Assembly: GCF_029626235.1 (NCBI RefSeq)
Contig: NZ_JARUBO010000005.1
Location: forward strand, 186,001 to 250,000
DNA from: Micromonospora sp. WMMD1120
Lineage (GTDB): Bacteria; Actinomycetota; Actinomycetes; Mycobacteriales; Micromonosporaceae
DNA: 64,000 bases
Direction: 5' to 3'
A program made the position numbers and the translations under genes. This document shows, piece after piece, positions 32,624 through 56,939 of the stretch. The notes beneath the pieces were generated by a model that saw nothing but the letters and a program-made list of their open reading frames with translations, had not been told where the DNA came from and ran no database searches. Each line of letters starts with the position of its first letter. Position 1 is the stretch's first letter.

Positions 32624-32703
32624 CCCGGCGTCCCGGCGTCCCGGCGTCCCGGCGTCCCGGCGTCCCGGCGTCCCGGCGTCCCGGCGTCCCGGCGTCCCGG
32701 CGT
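32624..32703. repeat. Ten exact tandem copies of CCCGGCGT
   Basis: An uninterrupted 8-bp repeat, ten copies, 80 bases, starting two bases after the synthase stop codon and ending against the family B palindrome. Copies are identical, so the array is probably young or unstable in length. Confidence 0.95.
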
Positions 32704-32704
32704 C

Positions 32705-45514: not shown

Positions 45515-46215
45515 GCGCCGGGCCGGAGCTGTCCATCCGGCGGCACCGCGACCGCCGGGTGCCGCTGGCCGCGCTGGTCGCGGCCGGCACGGCGGTCTGC
45601 CTGGCCGCCGGCACCGGGGTCGGGCTGGCCACCACCGGTCCGCCCCCGCCGACGGCGAGCTGGCACCCCGGCGCCGGCCTCGGACTGGCCACCACCGCTC
45701 CGCCCCCGCCGACGGCGAGCTGGCACCCCGGCTGCGGCGACACCTGCCCGTCCGGGGCCGCCACGCCCGCCGCGTCGGAGCCACCCACACGGGTACGCGT
45801 GCCGCGCATCGACGTCGACACGGCCCTCACGGTGTTGGGCCTGGACCGCGCCGGAGCGCTGGTCCCGCCGCGCGACTTCGCCACCGCCGGCTGGTACGGC
45901 GGTGGCCCGGCACCTGGCGACACCGGCCCGGCGGTGCTCGCCGGTCACCTGGACTCACGACGCGGCCCGGCGGTCTTCGCCCGGCTCGGCGAGCTGCGGC
46001 CCGGCGACCGGGTGGAGGTGTGGCGCGGCGGACAGCTGTTGTCGTTCCGGGTCACCGGGTCGCTGCGGACCCGCAAGGACAGCTTCCCGACGGCGCTGGT
46101 GTACGGGCCGACGCCGGGCGCGGAGCTGCGCCTGGTCACCTGCGGGGGCGACTTCGACAGGCGGCGCGGGCACTACCGGGACAACGTGGTGGTGTTCGCG
46201 GTCCGCGACTCGTGA
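45511..46215 (+). CDS. Class F sortase
   Basis: A 234-residue sortase with an N-terminal helix (VPLAALVAAGTAVCLAAG) and an extracytoplasmic catalytic domain. Catalytic His is in LAGHLDS, Cys in LVTCGG and Arg in GHYRDNVVV. Between anchor and catalytic domain is a duplicated stretch, GLATTGPPPPTASWHPG then GLATTAPPPPTASWHPG, encoded by a 60-bp direct repeat at 45621-45740. It presumably attaches the DUF4397 protein encoded upstream. The stop TGA lies in the first unit of a 42-bp tandem array. Confidence 0.9.
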   Translation: MSAGPELSIRRHRDRRVPLAALVAAGTAVCLAAGTGVGLATTGPPPPTASWHPGAGLGLATTAPPPPTASWHPGCGDTCPSGAATPAASEPPTRVRVPRIDVDTALTVLGLDRAGALVPPRDFATAGWYGGGPAPGDTGPAVLAGHLDSRRGPAVFARLGELRPGDRVEVWRGGQLLSFRVTGSLRTRKDSFPTALVYGPTPGAELRLVTCGGDFDRRRGHYRDNVVVFAVRDS

Positions 46216-46505
46216 TCCACTCGGCGTCCCAGGGTGTCGGGGCCACCAGCCACGTGATCCACTCGCCGTCCCGGGATGTCGGGGCCACCAGCCACGTGAT
46301 CCACTCGCCGTCCCGGCATGTCGGGGCCACCAGCCACGTGATCCACTCGCCGTCCCGGCATGTCGGGGCCACCAGCCACGTGATCCACTCGCCGTCCCGG
46401 GATGTCGGGGCCACCAGCCATATGATCCACTCGACATACCGGCATTTCGGGGCCACCAGCCGCATGATCCACTCGGCATACCGGGATAGCGCGGCCTCCG
46501 GCCAC
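46212..46505. repeat. Seven tandem 42-bp repeats after the sortase gene
   Basis: Units begin at 46212, 46254, 46296, 46338, 46380, 46422 and 46464. Units 2-5 are nearly identical; 6 and 7 are diverged. Each contains GTGATCCACTC (ATGATCCACTC in the last two), a small hairpin CCCGGCATGTCGGGG or variant, and GGCCACCAGCC. The first unit includes the sortase stop. An inverted fragment GTCGAGTGGATCA lies at 46532-46544. Spacer-free and uniform, so it is not a CRISPR. Confidence 0.95.
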
Positions 46506-50332: not shown

Positions 50333-50345
50333 CGTGACGGTCACG
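50333..50345. promoter_or_regulatory. Palindrome CGTGACGGTCACG upstream of the Crp-type gene
   Basis: A perfect 13-base palindrome with a single central base, 157 bases before the crp GTG, in the 250-base divergent gap. It contains the GTGA...TCAC core of Crp-family sites but with shorter spacing, so it is only a candidate autoregulatory site. Confidence 0.3.
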
Positions 50346-50501
50346 GAAGTGCTTCGAGGGGTGTACAGCAAGCGACCGGACCGTCATGATCTGATGTGTA
50401 CCGCTACCGGACGCCGAATCGGTGTCAGTTCATCCTGTCGGGGCCCATCAGGTTCGCCCGGTGAGCGAGTTGTGGTCCATGACCGGGGGAGGGGTTGGGC
50501 C

Positions 50502-51194
50502 GTGGAGGTTCGCCTGCCAGAGCCGGGTGACGCGCTCACGGGTGTCGAGATGTTCGCTGGGCTGGAGCCCGAGGTCCGGCAGCGGGTCATCGCCGCCGCC
50601 GTTCCGCGTACCTATCGCAAGGGCCAACTGCTCTTCGTAGAGAACGACCCCGGCGAGTCACTGATCGTGCTGCGACGTGGCGCGGTGGCCGTCTTCCGCA
50701 CCGCGCCCACCGGCGAACGGGCCGTGCTGTCGGTTATCCGTCCACCGGACGTGCTCGGCGAGGTCTCGCTGCTGGACGCGTCGACCCGGTCCGCGTCGGC
50801 GGAGGCCATCGAGGACTGCGCGGCCCTCGCGCTCTCCCGGGGCGCGTTCATGGAGCTGGTGCACTCCAACCCCCGCATCCTGGACGCGGTGATGCGCTCG
50901 CTCGGCGGGCTGATCCGCCGGCTCACCGAGCAGAACGCCGACCACGTCTTCCTCGACCTGCCCGGCCGGGTCGCCAAGACGCTGGTCCGACTGGCCGGCG
51001 AGAGCCAGGCGCCGATGATCACGATCGAGCTCAACCAGAGCCAGCTGGCCGAGATGGCCGGCGGGTCGCGGCAGAGCGTCAACCAGGCCATCGGCTCGTT
51101 CGCGAGCCGCGGTTGGCTGCGCACCGAGGGGCGCCGCATCGTGGTGACCGACGTGGCCGCGCTGCGCCGCCGCGCCGGCATGAACGACCGCTGA
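50502..51194 (+). CDS. Crp/Fnr-family transcription regulator
   Basis: A 230-residue regulator. The cyclic-nucleotide-binding domain (about 10-120) includes YRKGQLLFVENDPGESLIVL and PPDVLGEVSLLDASTRSASA, where RSAS is the phosphate-binding region of cAMP sites. A long dimer helix is followed by the helix-turn-helix SQLAEMAGGSRQSVNQAIGS. cAMP binding is plausible but not certain. GTG at 50502 follows GGGGGAGGGG and gives a family-typical N-terminus; a longer frame from 50334 adds an unlikely tail. The stop lies in the first unit of a 41-bp array. Confidence 0.9.
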   Translation: MEVRLPEPGDALTGVEMFAGLEPEVRQRVIAAAVPRTYRKGQLLFVENDPGESLIVLRRGAVAVFRTAPTGERAVLSVIRPPDVLGEVSLLDASTRSASAEAIEDCAALALSRGAFMELVHSNPRILDAVMRSLGGLIRRLTEQNADHVFLDLPGRVAKTLVRLAGESQAPMITIELNQSQLAEMAGGSRQSVNQAIGSFASRGWLRTEGRRIVVTDVAALRRRAGMNDR

Positions 51195-51302
51195 CCGTCC
51201 GCCCCGACGGCATCGTCGGCTTGTACGACCGCTGACCGTCCGCCCCGACGGCATCGTCGGCATGTACGACCGCTGACCGTCCGCACCGACGGCATCGTCG
51301 GC
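51184..51302. repeat. Three tandem 41-bp hairpin repeats after the Crp-type gene
   Basis: Units start at 51184, 51225 and 51266, each ACGACCGCTGACCGTCCGC... and each containing the small hairpin CCGACGGCATCGTCGG. The first unit overlaps the last codons and stop of the regulator gene, so the 3' end was duplicated downstream. Confidence 0.92.
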
Positions 51303-51388: not shown

Positions 51389-51413
51389 CGCCGGCTGCCA
51401 CTGGCAGCCGGCG
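51389..51413. terminator. 11-bp hairpin between convergent Crp-type gene and the small peptide gene
   Basis: CGCCGGCTGCC (51389-51399) and GGCAGCCGGCG (51403-51413) form a perfect stem with a 3-base loop. Placed to stop transcription from both sides. Confidence 0.7.
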
Positions 51414-51444: not shown

Positions 51445-51591
51445 TCAGCGGGTCGGGCCCAGCCAGCGGGTCGCACCCGGCCAGCGGGTCGCGGACGCCT
51501 GGTAACCGGGGCCCGCCCAGAAACCCGGCCCGGCCCAGAAGCCCGGTCCGGCCCAGCCGGTCGCCGTCGTGGTGGTCGTGGTCGTCGCCAT
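51445..51591 (-). CDS. 48-residue Trp-rich repeat peptide
   Basis: A short ORF with a good ribosome site (GAGGAGAC, five to six bases before the ATG). The product has three parts: MA followed by seven threonines, three tandem hexapeptides WAGPGF, WAGPGF, WAGPGY (residues 13-30), and then QAS followed by ATRWPG, ATRWLG, PTR. Both repeat blocks come from 18-bp DNA units, with third-position differences that suggest selection on the protein. It has five Trp and no Cys. I do not recognise a family. It could be a small secreted or modified peptide, or a structural peptide; no modifying enzyme is adjacent. It diverges from an MFS transporter gene 201 bases away. Confidence 0.6.
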   Translation of the reverse strand: MATTTTTTTATGWAGPGFWAGPGFWAGPGYQASATRWPGATRWLGPTR

Positions 51592-51792
51592 GTCGTCTCC
51601 TCGGTCGAAGCGAAGTGCCTGTCTGCCGAGAACGTTATGACGTGGAGCCGTGGAACAAAATAGGACAAATCGACACTAATCACTGGCTGAAGAGCGGTTG
51701 TCGGCTCCCCCTCCCCGTTGACAAGGTTGCCGCGCCCCACCTGTTCGAGGGCCCCCGGCCGACAAACCAGCAGCAGTGAGGAGCCACCGGTC

Positions 51793-53013
51793 ATGTCACT
51801 ACTCCGCGGCAATGTCGCCTTTGGTCGGTACTGGTCCGCGCGCCTGGTGTCGTACACCGGTGACCAGTTGGCCCGCACGGCCCTGCTGATCGCGGTCTAC
51901 GACCGGCACGGCGGCGGCGCCGTCGCCCTGCTGCTTCTCGCGTCGACGCTCCCCCGGCTGCTCGGTCCGCTGCTCGGCGCCCTGGCCGACAGGTTCGACC
52001 AGCGCCGGCTGATGATCGGTTGCGACACCGCGCAGGCGCTGACGTACCTCGCCGTGGCGCTGCTCGCGCCACCTCTGCCCGTGCTGCTGGCGCTGATCAC
52101 CGCGGCCACCACCGCCGCCACCGCGTTCACGCCCGCCGGACGCAGCCTGCTGCCCCGCCTGGTCGAGCGCGAGCACCTACCGGCGGCGAACGCGCAGCTC
52201 GCGACCGGTGTCAACGTTGGACTTGCGGCCGGTCCGGCGCTCGGCGGCCTGCTGCTGGCCACCATCGGCCTGACCGCCACGCTGCTCGTGGACGTGGCGA
52301 CCTTCGTGCTCTCCGCGCTGCTGATCGGCGGTGTCCGTACGCTCTCGACGACCGGGGCCACCCGCCGTCAGGAGACCCTGCCCACAGTGCTGCGCGAAGG
52401 GCTACGGGTGGTCCGGGGACACCGCGTGGTCCGCGCGGTCTCGGTCGGGTTCCTGGTGATGGTGGCGTTCGCCGCGCTGGACAATCTCGCGATCGTCCCC
52501 CTCGGACGCGCCGAGCTGGGCGCCAGCGAGGTGCTGATCGGCCTGCTGGGAACCGCCTACGGCGTCGGGATGGTGCTCGGGCCGCTGTGCCTCGCCAGGA
52601 CCGGCGTACCCGTTCGGATGGACCTGGTCCTCTACGGCGCGCTGCTCGCCCTCGGCATCGGCACGCTGGCCACCGGCCTCAGCCCGGTGATCGCGTTCGC
52701 CCTCGCCGGTCAGGCGGTGGCCGGTGTCGGCGCGGGCTGGCACAACGTCGCCGCGGACACCCTCATCCAGCAGAACGTGCCGGCCGACCGGCTCGGCGTG
52801 GTCTTCGGCACCGTCTACATGTTCCCGTACGCGGCGGAGGGGCTGGCCTACGCCGTCGGCGCGCCGCTGCTGGCGCTGGCGGGGCCACGCTGGGTGCTGG
52901 TCGTCTCGGGGTTGGGCGTCCTGGCCACCCTGGGGCTGATCGCTCCGCTGCTCACCCGGGCCCTGGGGCTACGGCTGCCGGCCCTGGGGAGGCTGGTGCC
53001 GAGCAACGGGTGA
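51793..53013 (+). CDS. MFS transporter
   Basis: A 406-residue major facilitator with about twelve helices. The N-terminal part, RGNVAFGRYWSARLVSYTGD, and the loop LGALADRFDQRRLMIGCD between helices 2 and 3 are typical of the MFS_3/enterobactin-exporter-like group common in actinobacteria. The loop carries the GxLaDrxdrr signature. Substrate unknown; drug or peptide efflux is possible. ATG at 51793 follows GAGGAG, and an exact TTGACA (51718-51723) is a good -35 candidate. The longer frame from 51718 would start inside the promoter. Confidence 0.87.
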   Translation: MSLLRGNVAFGRYWSARLVSYTGDQLARTALLIAVYDRHGGGAVALLLLASTLPRLLGPLLGALADRFDQRRLMIGCDTAQALTYLAVALLAPPLPVLLALITAATTAATAFTPAGRSLLPRLVEREHLPAANAQLATGVNVGLAAGPALGGLLLATIGLTATLLVDVATFVLSALLIGGVRTLSTTGATRRQETLPTVLREGLRVVRGHRVVRAVSVGFLVMVAFAALDNLAIVPLGRAELGASEVLIGLLGTAYGVGMVLGPLCLARTGVPVRMDLVLYGALLALGIGTLATGLSPVIAFALAGQAVAGVGAGWHNVAADTLIQQNVPADRLGVVFGTVYMFPYAAEGLAYAVGAPLLALAGPRWVLVVSGLGVLATLGLIAPLLTRALGLRLPALGRLVPSNG

Positions 53014-53073: not shown

Positions 53074-53331
53074 TCAGTCCCCCGTGCTGTCGGCCGGCGG
53101 CGCGCCCGGACCGGGGCCGATCTTCTTCGGATCGACCGGCTTAACGGGCGTGGGCGTGCTCGACGAGGTGGTCGTGGTCTCCCCCGACCCGCTCGACTGA
53201 CCCTCAGGCTCTTCCACCATGCCCTGCTCCTCCAGTTCGGCGAGAGTCACCGCGTCGACGTCGACTGTGTCGCCCGCAGCCCACAGCTTGCCTCCCGAAT
53301 CGGTCCACGAGGCGGACAATCGCACCTGCAC
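53074..53331 (-). CDS. Small acidic protein of unknown function
   Basis: An 85-residue protein. The first half, VQVRLSASWTDSGGKLWAAG then DTVDVDAVTLAELEEQGMVE, could be a small beta-rich domain. The second half is a disordered Ser/Thr/Pro-rich tail (SSGSGETTTTSSSTPTP). GTG at 53331 follows GGGAGAG. No family recognised with certainty. A frame to 53406 is possible but has no ribosome site. It diverges from the large cyclase-ATPase gene. Confidence 0.6.
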   Translation of the reverse strand: MQVRLSASWTDSGGKLWAAGDTVDVDAVTLAELEEQGMVEEPEGQSSGSGETTTTSSSTPTPVKPVDPKKIGPGPGAPPADSTGD

Positions 53332-53462
53332 GGCACTCTCCCTGACATGAAACTTCCTGGTACGGAACACTAACCCCGTCCGATCGACGCCGTTGCCCGC
53401 CCGCACGTCGGGTACCCGACTGGCAGGGTGGGACGAGATACTGACCTCTTTCGCCCACGGAG

Positions 53463-56400
53463 CTGACCATCGACCTCAAGTGTGGACACTGCGCACGGGC
53501 GGCCGGGCCGGACGACCGCTTCTGCGGCGGGTGCGGCCAACCGCTCGCGGTCACCTGTGCGCACTGCGGCCATGCCAACAGCACCGAGGCCAACTTCTGC
53601 ACCGGCTGCGGGCAGCCGTTGCGGGACCACGTCGTCGTCGTGCAGGAGGACCGGCGCCAGGTCAGCGTGCTCTTCATCGACATCGTCGACTTCACCCGCT
53701 ACGCGGAGCAGGCCGACCCGGAGCAGGCCCGCAGCCTCCAGCAGGGCTATTTCGCGACGGTGCGGCGGATCGTGCACCAGTACGGCGGTGTGGTCGAGAA
53801 ATACATCGGCGACGCGGTGATGGCGCTGTTCGGCGCGCCGGTGGCCACCGACAACGACGCGTTGCGGTGCGTCCGCGCCGGCCTGGAGCTGCAACGGAGT
53901 CTTGCCCGCCAGCCCGCCGGCCCGCAGCCGCCGCTCGGTTTCCGGGTCGGCATCGCGACCGGTGAGGCGCTGGTCGACCTCTCCGCCACCCGCGACGGCG
54001 GGCAGGCGTTCGTCACCGGCGACGTGGTCAACACGGCGTCCCGGTTGCAGAGTTTCGCCCCGCCGGGCGGTGTCGTCGTCGACGAGAGCACCTGGTCGGC
54101 CACCCGCCACGAGATGGAGTACGACGACCAGCCTCCGGTGACCCTGCGTGGCCGGACCGCCGTGAGCCGGATCTGGTTGGCCGTCCAGGTACGACCGCAC
54201 CGGGACCCGGCCGGCGCCGAGCTGACCCCGATGGTGGACCGGGAGCACGAGCGTGGCCTGCTGGTCAACGCGCTGCACCGGATGGTGACCGAACGGACCT
54301 CCCAGCTGGTGACGGTGTTCGGGCCCGCCGGGGTGGGCAAGAGCCGGCTGCTGCGCGAGCTGGCCCGGCACGCCGACAGCCTGCCCGGTCCGTCGATCAC
54401 CTGGCTCGTCGGGCAGTGTCCGCCGTTCGGCGAGAACGTCACCTGGGCCGCGTTGTCGGACATCGTGAAGGCGTGGCTGGGTGTGCCGGAGGCGGACGAC
54501 CCGACCACGCTGCGGGAACGGCTGCGGACCCGGCTGGGGCAGCTCGCCGACCCGCACGCGACCCGACTGGCCGAGGCGCTCGGGCCGCTGATCGGCGTAC
54601 CCGGTGAACGACTCACCCCGGGCGAGACGGAGGCCGGCTGGCGGCGCTTCCTGCTCTGCGTCGCCGGCGCCGGACCCACGGTGCTGGTCTTCGAGGACAT
54701 GCACTGGGCCGACCAGGCGATGCTCGCCTTCGTCGAGCAGTTGGGCGCGTCGGCCCGACAGGTTCCGCTGCTGGTCGTCGCGACCGCCCGTCCGGAGCTG
54801 CGGGAACGGCATCCGGCGTGGACCGGCACGATCAGCGGCGCGATGTCCATCTCGGTGCCGCCCATGCACGACACCGACATCGACACCCTCTACTCGCTGC
54901 TTCTCGGGCAGTCGACGCTGCCCACCAGCGCGCGTACCCCGCTGATCGAGTTCGCCGACGGCAACCCGCTCTACGCACAGGAGTACGCCCGGATGCTGCT
55001 CGACGGCGGCCTGCTCGACGCGGTCGGCTCGGCCGTCCACCTCGACCCGGGTGGCGGCGCGGAGATGCCCCGCACGGTGCAGGCCGTCATCGCCAACCGG
55101 CTGGACCTGCTCGACCCGGCGGACCGGGCGGTGCTCCAGGCCGCCGCGGTGGTCGGCATGCAGTTCTGGGCCGCCCCGGTGGCCACGGCGCTGGGCCGGC
55201 CGGTGGAGTGGGTGGAGCGCGCGCTGGACCGGCTGCAACGTCGCGACCTGGTATACGAGCAGAGCACCTCGACGATGCCCGGCCAGTCCGAGTACCGGTT
55301 CCGGCACATCCTGGTGCGGGACGTCTGCTACCAGCGGTTGCCCCGGGCCGAGCGGGTGGTACGCCACCAACGCACCGCCGACTGGATGGCGCAGCTCACC
55401 GACGGTCGGCAGCACGACCTGGCGGAGGTGCTGGCCAACCACCGCTGGGCGGCGCACGAGATCGCCCGCACCGTCGGTCTGGACACCGCTCCGTACGCCC
55501 CGGAGGCGCGGGCCGCGCTGCACCGTGCGGCCCGCCGGGCGTACGAGCTGCACGCGCTGGACACCGCGGCGGCGCTGGTGGGGCGGGCCCTGGCCCTGGA
55601 CGTCGGACCGGACCCGGCGCTGGAGTTGTTCGACGCCGAGCTGGCGTTCTACCGCGACGGTGACGCCTTCCTGGTGGCCGGCGGCACGGACACCGTCAGC
55701 CGGTTGGCCGACCGGCTCACCGAGAGCGGCGACCGGACCGGCGCGGCGCGCGCCTGGACGCTGCTCGCGACCGCCGCGTGGAGTCGCGCCGACCGATCGG
55801 CGACCCTGCGCTGCCTGGACCAGGCGATCGGCATCTACAGCGAGCTGCCGGACAGCCAGGAGAAGGCGGGGGCGCTGCTGGAGCTGGCCCGGGTGCACAT
55901 GCTGAACGCGGAGACCGATCCGGCGTGCGCCGCCGCCCGGGCTGCGGAGTCCCTCGCCGAGCGGCTCCAGCTACGGGAGGTCCAGGCCAACGCCCAGATC
56001 ACCCTCGCCGTGGCGCGGTACCTGGCCGGGTCGGCCTCGGCGTACGCGGAGCTGGCCGAGGTCACCGAGCACTGCCGGGTGGAGCGGCTGACCAGCCGAC
56101 GGCGGGCGGTGCAGAACCTGGCCTGGGCGTTGCAGGAGGAGGGTGACCTGGCCGGCTCGGCCCAGTTGGTCGACGAACAGCTCACCCTCGACCCGGGCGG
56201 CGAGCACAGCCTCGCCACCAGCTTCGCCGACCAGTGGGCCCGGGCGTACTACGCCGGTGACTGGACGGCCGCGCAGGCGATGGCGGCGGAGTCGACCCGG
56301 CGGCCCACCGCGGAGTGGGATCTGCACATCGTGGCGGTCTCCGGCTGGATGCGCGGGCTGGCCGGCGAGCGGGACGGGTCGGCGGACGCGGACGAGGCGG

Positions 56401-56939
56401 GCCCGGATCTGGTCGAGCGGGCGCTGGTCGCGGCGCGCCGCAGCGGGTTCCACCGGGTGCTGCGCTCCACCCTGGCGCACGCCGCCCTCTGCCGCGCGGT
56501 GCAGGGCCGCCGGGACGATGCGATGGCGCTGCTGACCGAGTTGGACGAGGACTGGCGGCGGACCCGGATGATTCCGTTCGCGGAGTGGGTGCCGGCCGTC
56601 GGGCACGTCGCCGGGGTGCTCGGCACGGACGCGGCCCGGCTGGTCCGGGAGATGCTCGACCGGGCGCCCCGGATGACCCCGTGGGCGCGCGCCGCCCGCC
56701 AGGTCGCCGACGCGACGCTGGCGCGGCACGCCGGGGACCTGCCGACCGCCACGGACCTGCTGGGCTCGGCGGCGGCGAGCTACGCCCGGATGGCCGACGT
56801 GACCGACGAGATCATCACGACGGCGCTGGCGATCGGCCCGTTGGGCGAGACCGACCCGCCGGCCGCCTCGGTGGCCCGCGCCCGGCTGCACGAGTTCGCC
56901 ACCCGCCACCACGCCCCCACCCTGCTCCACCTGGCCTGA
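53463..56939 (+). CDS. Zinc-ribbon, class III cyclase, AAA ATPase and TPR regulator
   Basis: A large multidomain regulator of about 1158 residues if read from the in-frame CTG at 53463. Order: two zinc ribbons with four CxxC knuckles (KCGHC, FCGGC, TCAHC, FCTGC), a class III adenylate/guanylate cyclase domain (VLFIDIVDFTRY with both metal Asp; EKYIGDAVMALFG), an STAND-type ATPase (GPAGVGKSRLLRELA; VLVFEDMHWADQ), and about 450 residues of helical TPR-like repeats. There is no ATG, GTG or TTG start upstream of the zinc ribbons; the first such codon is the TTG at 53619, after them. CTG replacing ATG in a CTG-ACC-ATC start is my best reading. Ligand unknown. Confidence 0.85.
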   Translation: MTIDLKCGHCARAAGPDDRFCGGCGQPLAVTCAHCGHANSTEANFCTGCGQPLRDHVVVVQEDRRQVSVLFIDIVDFTRYAEQADPEQARSLQQGYFATVRRIVHQYGGVVEKYIGDAVMALFGAPVATDNDALRCVRAGLELQRSLARQPAGPQPPLGFRVGIATGEALVDLSATRDGGQAFVTGDVVNTASRLQSFAPPGGVVVDESTWSATRHEMEYDDQPPVTLRGRTAVSRIWLAVQVRPHRDPAGAELTPMVDREHERGLLVNALHRMVTERTSQLVTVFGPAGVGKSRLLRELARHADSLPGPSITWLVGQCPPFGENVTWAALSDIVKAWLGVPEADDPTTLRERLRTRLGQLADPHATRLAEALGPLIGVPGERLTPGETEAGWRRFLLCVAGAGPTVLVFEDMHWADQAMLAFVEQLGASARQVPLLVVATARPELRERHPAWTGTISGAMSISVPPMHDTDIDTLYSLLLGQSTLPTSARTPLIEFADGNPLYAQEYARMLLDGGLLDAVGSAVHLDPGGGAEMPRTVQAVIANRLDLLDPADRAVLQAAAVVGMQFWAAPVATALGRPVEWVERALDRLQRRDLVYEQSTSTMPGQSEYRFRHILVRDVCYQRLPRAERVVRHQRTADWMAQLTDGRQHDLAEVLANHRWAAHEIARTVGLDTAPYAPEARAALHRAARRAYELHALDTAAALVGRALALDVGPDPALELFDAELAFYRDGDAFLVAGGTDTVSRLADRLTESGDRTGAARAWTLLATAAWSRADRSATLRCLDQAIGIYSELPDSQEKAGALLELARVHMLNAETDPACAAARAAESLAERLQLREVQANAQITLAVARYLAGSASAYAELAEVTEHCRVERLTSRRRAVQNLAWALQEEGDLAGSAQLVDEQLTLDPGGEHSLATSFADQWARAYYAGDWTAAQAMAAESTRRPTAEWDLHIVAVSGWMRGLAGERDGSADADEAGPDLVERALVAARRSGFHRVLRSTLAHAALCRAVQGRRDDAMALLTELDEDWRRTRMIPFAEWVPAVGHVAGVLGTDAARLVREMLDRAPRMTPWARAARQVADATLARHAGDLPTATDLLGSAAASYARMADVTDEIITTALAIGPLGETDPPAASVARARLHEFATRHHAPTLLHLA

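Follow-up and report, generated by a model that had tools for sequence, protein, structure and literature searches.

Several described systems resemble in part the locus considered here, and we begin with the closest of them. The microcin C operon (mccA and mccC) likewise combines a short ribosomal peptide with an MFS exporter, MccC, which exports that kind of peptide (PMC9239234). Our locus differs in having divergent genes rather than one operon and many repeats rather than one short peptide, and among the genes common to the loci compared, where neighbours were typed in part, there is none like mccB (for an MccB-type adenylyltransferase). The streptococcal ryptides enter the comparison through the NCBIfam model of ryptide-export MFS proteins (NF041056), which the MFS of our locus matches weakly, at 32 bits against a cut-off of 575; the score is thus far below cut-off, and no modifying enzyme is linked here. 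Because the portion of PMC13361665 available mentions ryptides and not MFS proteins, the link between the two rests on the name of that model. The multi-core precursors of fungi and plants are also made of tandem near-identical units, whereas the present locus is bacterial and has no known processing site or protease. Indolicidin is a short, Trp-rich antimicrobial peptide that contains Trp and Pro. The family described here is also short and contains both residues (net charge 0 to +5), but it follows a strict W-x-G-P repeat. Regulators of the AcrZ/MgtS type are tiny proteins acting on a transporter (PMC10710835); here a tiny protein is likewise paired with one, although no membrane helix is predicted in it (low confidence). 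Topic searches of the literature return nothing resembling a peptide-MFS system, as judged from the lists of hits, and the motifs WAGPTR, WAGPGF, WAGPGY and GWAGPG occur in no paper of the literature searched, a collection mostly free of subscription papers. Searches of genomes for ribosomal peptides commonly take modifying enzymes as their starting point, and they would then overlook a peptide that has a common MFS pump as its sole constant partner. The observations below suggest, from sequence comparison, that such a peptide and its pump, whose genes lie back to back in certain soil actinobacteria, form an undescribed two-gene peptide system with a predicted function.

The window, the whole 64,000-nucleotide stretch analysed from the 7.15-Mb genome of Micromonospora sp. 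WMMD1120, carries the gene of a repeat peptide at complement(51445..51591), assigned from its sequence, its homologues and selection tests. The product, MATTTTTTTATGWAGPGFWAGPGFWAGPGYQASATRWPGATRWLGPTR, has 48 aa and five Trp, and runs from a Thr-rich N-terminus through WAGPGF, WAGPGF, WAGPGY, an intervening QASATR, WPGATR and WLGPTR to the stop codon TGA. A ribosome-site-like GAGGAG (51597..51602, minus strand) lies 5 nt before the ATG, with a comparable purine-rich stretch in the relatives, so the 48-codon ORF with five Trp and a good ribosome site is as the first-pass annotation described it. The gene contains two 18-bp arrays (TRF). The first-pass annotation had read two different hexapeptide blocks in it, the second written (ATRW)2. 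We find a single repeat type instead: WPGATR, WLGPTR and WAGPGF are all one W-x-G-[PA]-[GT]-x unit, and two unrelated blocks are ruled out because all Trp of the family (102/102 in 20 peptides) fit one W-x-G unit.

Across the family the unit is W-x-G-P-(G/T)-(F/Y/R), present in 2-7 copies per peptide; it is kept while the repeat number varies between peptides. Every GP lies within [WY]-x-GP (98/98 in the same 20 peptides). The W-x-G and [WY]-x-GP counts are non-circular, while the per-position unit counts are partly circular, the search pattern fixing W/Y, G, P/A and G/T/S. They use 20 of the 21 peptides, that of G151 being identical to that of G097 and omitted. The last two residues are TR or SR in every one of the 21 peptides. 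The free position x is A in 72 of 104 units, followed by V (11), P (6), L (6), M (3) and others (6), and in the G097 peptide (GWIGPTR-GWAGPTR-GWVGPTR-GWLGPTR) it is the sole difference among four units. Lengths range from 20 aa (MIKNERTWAGPTRTWAGPTR, G757) to 60 aa (G158). The N-terminal stretch before the repeats is usually Ser/Thr-rich, but in G327 and G757 it is short and not Thr-rich. The composition is Gly/Pro-rich, and structure models predict a disordered peptide with no helix (low confidence: pLDDT 47, five sequences). The first-pass annotation had seen no likeness to a known toxin or RiPP precursor, and the window peptide has no match in NCBIfam, Pfam or PADLOC and one PHROGs row at E 0.1. 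Its homologue P0001 has none in the phage and plasmid collections searched, and two sub-threshold Rfam rows both fall outside the peptide gene.

The next question is whether the frame is coding. With a minimum length of 30 aa, 65 ORFs overlap the 7 kb examined, and the repeat region is open in most of its other frames as well; chance ORFs are thus common in the region, which makes conservation the real test. Non-coding repeats that drift, and are open by accident, would agree with a high GC content that leaves most frames open and with the varying number of units. The peptide frame, however, has a pN/pS of 0.40 in both Micromonospora groups (16 peptides, in groups of 9 and 7, with the g51 peptides left out), as compared to 1.3-1.7 in four of the five other frames, all from a nucleotide-only alignment; the remaining one, antisense frame -2, shares the wobble positions and gives 0.45 and 0.48. 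With protein-guided alignments the two groups give 0.25 and 0.41 for the peptide, and the MFS has 0.16 in the first group against 0.25 for the peptide. Third codon positions differ with about double the frequency of first or second ones. This frame-specific pN/pS rules out non-coding drift for practical purposes, and the 102/102 Trp in W-x-G and the conservation of the peptide across genera also speak against it, so that we give the idea almost no credence. The selection for the protein that the first-pass annotation had suspected is thereby borne out, and the two outcomes that it had named as damaging, a frame not conserved in relatives and drift of non-coding repeats, did not come out against the ORF. 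The comparisons confirm the peptide ORF as a genuine protein-coding gene under purifying selection.

We turn our attention to the distribution of the peptide and its neighbour. A single-sequence search gives one homologue, of 60 aa, in M. chersina; a profile search gives six protein rows, of which four are clear homologues (P0001-P0004) and two are set aside (P0005, E 0.1; P0006, E 1.6). Genome searches listed 21 of 151 genomes, from which G070, G116, G125, G129, G157 and G172 were dropped on translation as low-complexity look-alikes, and 10 of 200 genomes, from which G196, G254 and G317 were dropped likewise; in a further set 61/61 genomes matched at E up to 1, with G000 and G002 taken as real and the other rows translated in part. 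A class-wide peptide profile search of 394 genomes, scoring 17 candidates per genome, finds none outside the family (two genomes were listed and G673 was dropped), with the proviso that short members can escape, the profile having missed the 20-aa G757 peptide that was found via its MFS. The DNA pattern WxGPTR-stop matches 208 of 250 family genomes, with counts that by eye are about those of a reversed control and thus uninformative.

A search with the MFS gives matches in 14 of 151 genus genomes, and a divergent upstream peptide of the same design is found in 14/14. Its profile gives 18 matches in 160 genus genomes (16 full-length, G151 in two frames, and a fragment in G019) and 13 in 250 family genomes, including four full-length ones from genus g51 (G327, G330, G757 and G750), which is probably Actinoplanes, since MFS proteins of named Actinoplanes are 65-66% identical to that of the window. 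An order-level MFS search of 229 genomes returns matches in three already known genomes only, and the plasmid collection searched contains no match. The pair is also present in the M. trifolii and M. tarensis loci, with peptides equal to those of G145 and G078 (these may be the same genomes). Altogether the peptide stands beside 20/20 full-length MFS of the subclade (16 Micromonospora and four g51, Actinoplanes-like), and with G151 there are 21 genomes in which a peptide with a purine-rich stretch before its ATG is divergent from the MFS. Conservation beside the same MFS, proposed earlier as a check, is therefore found, and it shows the peptide gene to be tied to this divergent transporter gene. 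Among ORFs of at least 90 aa, the size covered by the gene-sharing comparison, the MFS is the only gene common to the four g51 loci, the window and G151.

Several genomes depart from the pairing. In G151 the peptide is intact, while the MFS next to it falls into two frames. In the G019 locus (L175 1430-1927) MFS and peptide survive as one shared remnant; a single apparent deletion would account for the loss of MFS codons 1 to ~151, the promoter and the peptide start. Rugosimonospora africana has an in-frame MFS (L077 3501-4889), 58 and 72% identical in two segments, with a central-loop insertion of about 70 residues, and no peptide is found beside it at this locus; the gene order of G194, one of the 13 family matches, agrees with L077. 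Two Dactylosporangium MFS proteins (37 and 39% identical) have no such peptide. In the MFS tree with Dactylosporangium outside, the Rugosimonospora-type clade, of which R. africana is the sole member read, is surrounded by peptide-bearing rows, and the simplest reading of this sequence tree is therefore an old peptide-MFS association lost in that clade. In P0049-P0051 the central loop of this MFS carries xGP repeats without Trp.

The window MFS (51793..53013, plus strand) has 406 aa and a predicted all-helical MFS fold. PF07690 and PF05977 are above their cut-offs, and the best NCBIfam row is TIGR00900 (167.8 bits against a cut-off of 319.6), from which it is DHA3-like, below cut-off. Its profile relatives (TIGR00900, EntS, Mef(A), Tap and the ryptide-export model) are H+ antiporters and exporters, all below cut-offs. 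The structure model has a pLDDT of 90.6 and its best PDB match is MdfA; of two PDB profile searches, one is empty and the other gives weak NorA rows (E 0.04). By family and by modelled fold this is an efflux-type transporter.

A divergent region of 201 bp (51592..51792) separates the two start codons. The start-to-start distance is 200-214 nt in Micromonospora (for G072, 202 nt, or 223 if a later Met is counted) and 163-166 nt in g51. Alignments show that the region is conserved within Micromonospora, the block CAAAAT..GACA.AT (51656..51671) being well conserved. A sigma-70 consensus scan of the region finds no promoter, so promoter assignments are inferred, including that of a possible -10 element on the peptide strand (ACGTTA at 51632..51637, minus strand; ACGCTA in most relatives). 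On the other side of the peptide gene, 31 nt after the stop codon, lies a perfect 11-bp GC hairpin (51389..51413, minus strand), which resembles a terminator but lacks a T run. In 20/21 genomes a perfect stem of 10 bp or more is found 4-48 nt after the stop, and it is longer than the best of 200 shuffles in only 6/21, because the DNA is GC-rich. In Micromonospora the hairpin may serve crp as well.

This crp gene (50334..51194, plus strand), for a Crp/Fnr-type regulator, is the Micromonospora flank of the pair, convergent downstream of the peptide gene in 17/17 Micromonospora loci (16 with a full MFS, and G151). Beyond the MFS lie a small protein, one stretch of which resembles DUF7210 below threshold (53074..53406, minus strand), and, as outer flank, a protein with an adenylate/guanylate cyclase domain and AAA (53619..56939, plus strand); both are present in 16 of the 17 loci, the exception within the stretch examined being G111. 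Where the MFS is absent (28 loci), the small protein and then the cyclase come after crp; 30 loci were read from 45 matching genomes, and two of the 30 have the MFS. What lies beside the pair changes from genus to genus, and among ORFs of 90 aa or more the g51 neighbourhoods have the MFS alone in common: G327 and G757 have a DUF5317 gene (L071 8590-9279; L244 7212-7853) on the peptide's strand, starting about 70 nt after the peptide and behind the hairpin, while G330 and G750 contain one further MFS apiece, 36% alike. All the loci compared share no third gene of that size, and no modifying-enzyme domain is found among the adjacent window genes typed. Neither the PADLOC defence profiles nor, for the small neighbour, the phage collection searched gives a match.

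Because the unit number is free while the unit is kept and its x varies, our main reading, to which we give not quite an even chance, is that of a peptide precursor with several units that yields a product for export by the MFS. Gene 1 would encode a short precursor with an N-terminal stretch, 2-7 units and a (T/S)R end; gene 2, read from the shared 163-214 bp divergent region, would encode the DHA3-like exporter. The MFS would move out the whole peptide or units cut by general proteases, the cutting being assumed since a peptide of 20-60 aa is probably large for an MFS cavity. Export would also protect the producer, and outside the cell the units would serve as an antagonist or signal. We infer the exporter role, the repeats as product (by multi-core logic) and the outside action alike. 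The 20/20 pairing and the exporters among the sub-cut-off profile relatives speak for export. Against it, no processing or modifying enzyme is linked at the loci compared, R. africana keeps its in-frame MFS without the peptide, and G151 keeps an intact peptide beside a split MFS. Efflux MFS proteins of this kind usually carry small molecules, and this one may therefore have another substrate. If the pump does export the peptide, the locus would represent a simple type of peptide-export cassette that is new and has a clear testable unit. An unmodified precursor would even yield a set of near-identical W-x-G-P-T-R peptides with dedicated MFS export and without linked maturase or protease, a peptide library from one tiny gene; this further step we consider rather unlikely.

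The pairing is explained equally well if the peptide is a disordered small protein that remains with the cell, inside or at its surface, and by binding the MFS or a partner switches transport or sets its specificity, as AcrZ does for AcrB or hepcidin for ferroportin. The fold search with the MFS returns ferroportin entries, one of them hepcidin-bound. Small-protein modulators of transporters are known (PMC10710835). The Gly/Pro density speaks against a membrane helix of the AcrZ type, as does, at low confidence, the helix-free model; a tolerance of 2-7 units would be less expected of a regulator and fits less well than with export. We regard this alternative as somewhat unlikely; if it holds, an MFS transporter would have a peptide regulator of an unusual, probably disordered kind. 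Modification of the Trp units by an enzyme encoded elsewhere, followed by MFS export, would make the peptide a RiPP precursor. Its repeated aromatic core-like units, the distinct N-terminus of most members, the transporter and the weak match to the ryptide-export model are in keeping with that, and frame-specific selection points to a ribosomal precursor; but the shared third gene and the modifying-enzyme domain expected nearby were absent from the loci and genes described above, and we think such a pathway distinctly improbable.

Still more doubtful is a cis-acting leader peptide, in which translation or arrest at Trp, Gly-Pro or the terminal codons would control a downstream gene. A short Trp-rich ORF followed by a hairpin invites this idea, as does the DUF5317 gene in G327 and G757. 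These are, however, the only 2 of 21 loci with a same-strand downstream gene: crp is convergent in all the Micromonospora loci, in G330 and G750 no gene of 90 aa or more was called next downstream on the peptide's strand, and the MFS is divergent and hence on another transcript.

A few further repeats were seen around the pair. The DUF7210-like neighbour ends in [WY]xGP[GTS] tails in Micromonospora where the cyclase is about 63% identical to that of the window (L202, L208 and L192), in YVGPS in Rugosimonospora (L077 4992-5294), and in KIGPGP in pair-bearing genomes and others near them; the W-x-G-P unit may thus be a wider short motif that also occurs in these tails. At the DNA level, about three 41-bp direct repeats with 95% matches run across the end of crp (window 51176-51302), and elsewhere the window contains a 42-bp tandem array of 6.3 copies (46211-46505) and a perfect 8-bp array of 10.1 copies (32624-32704).
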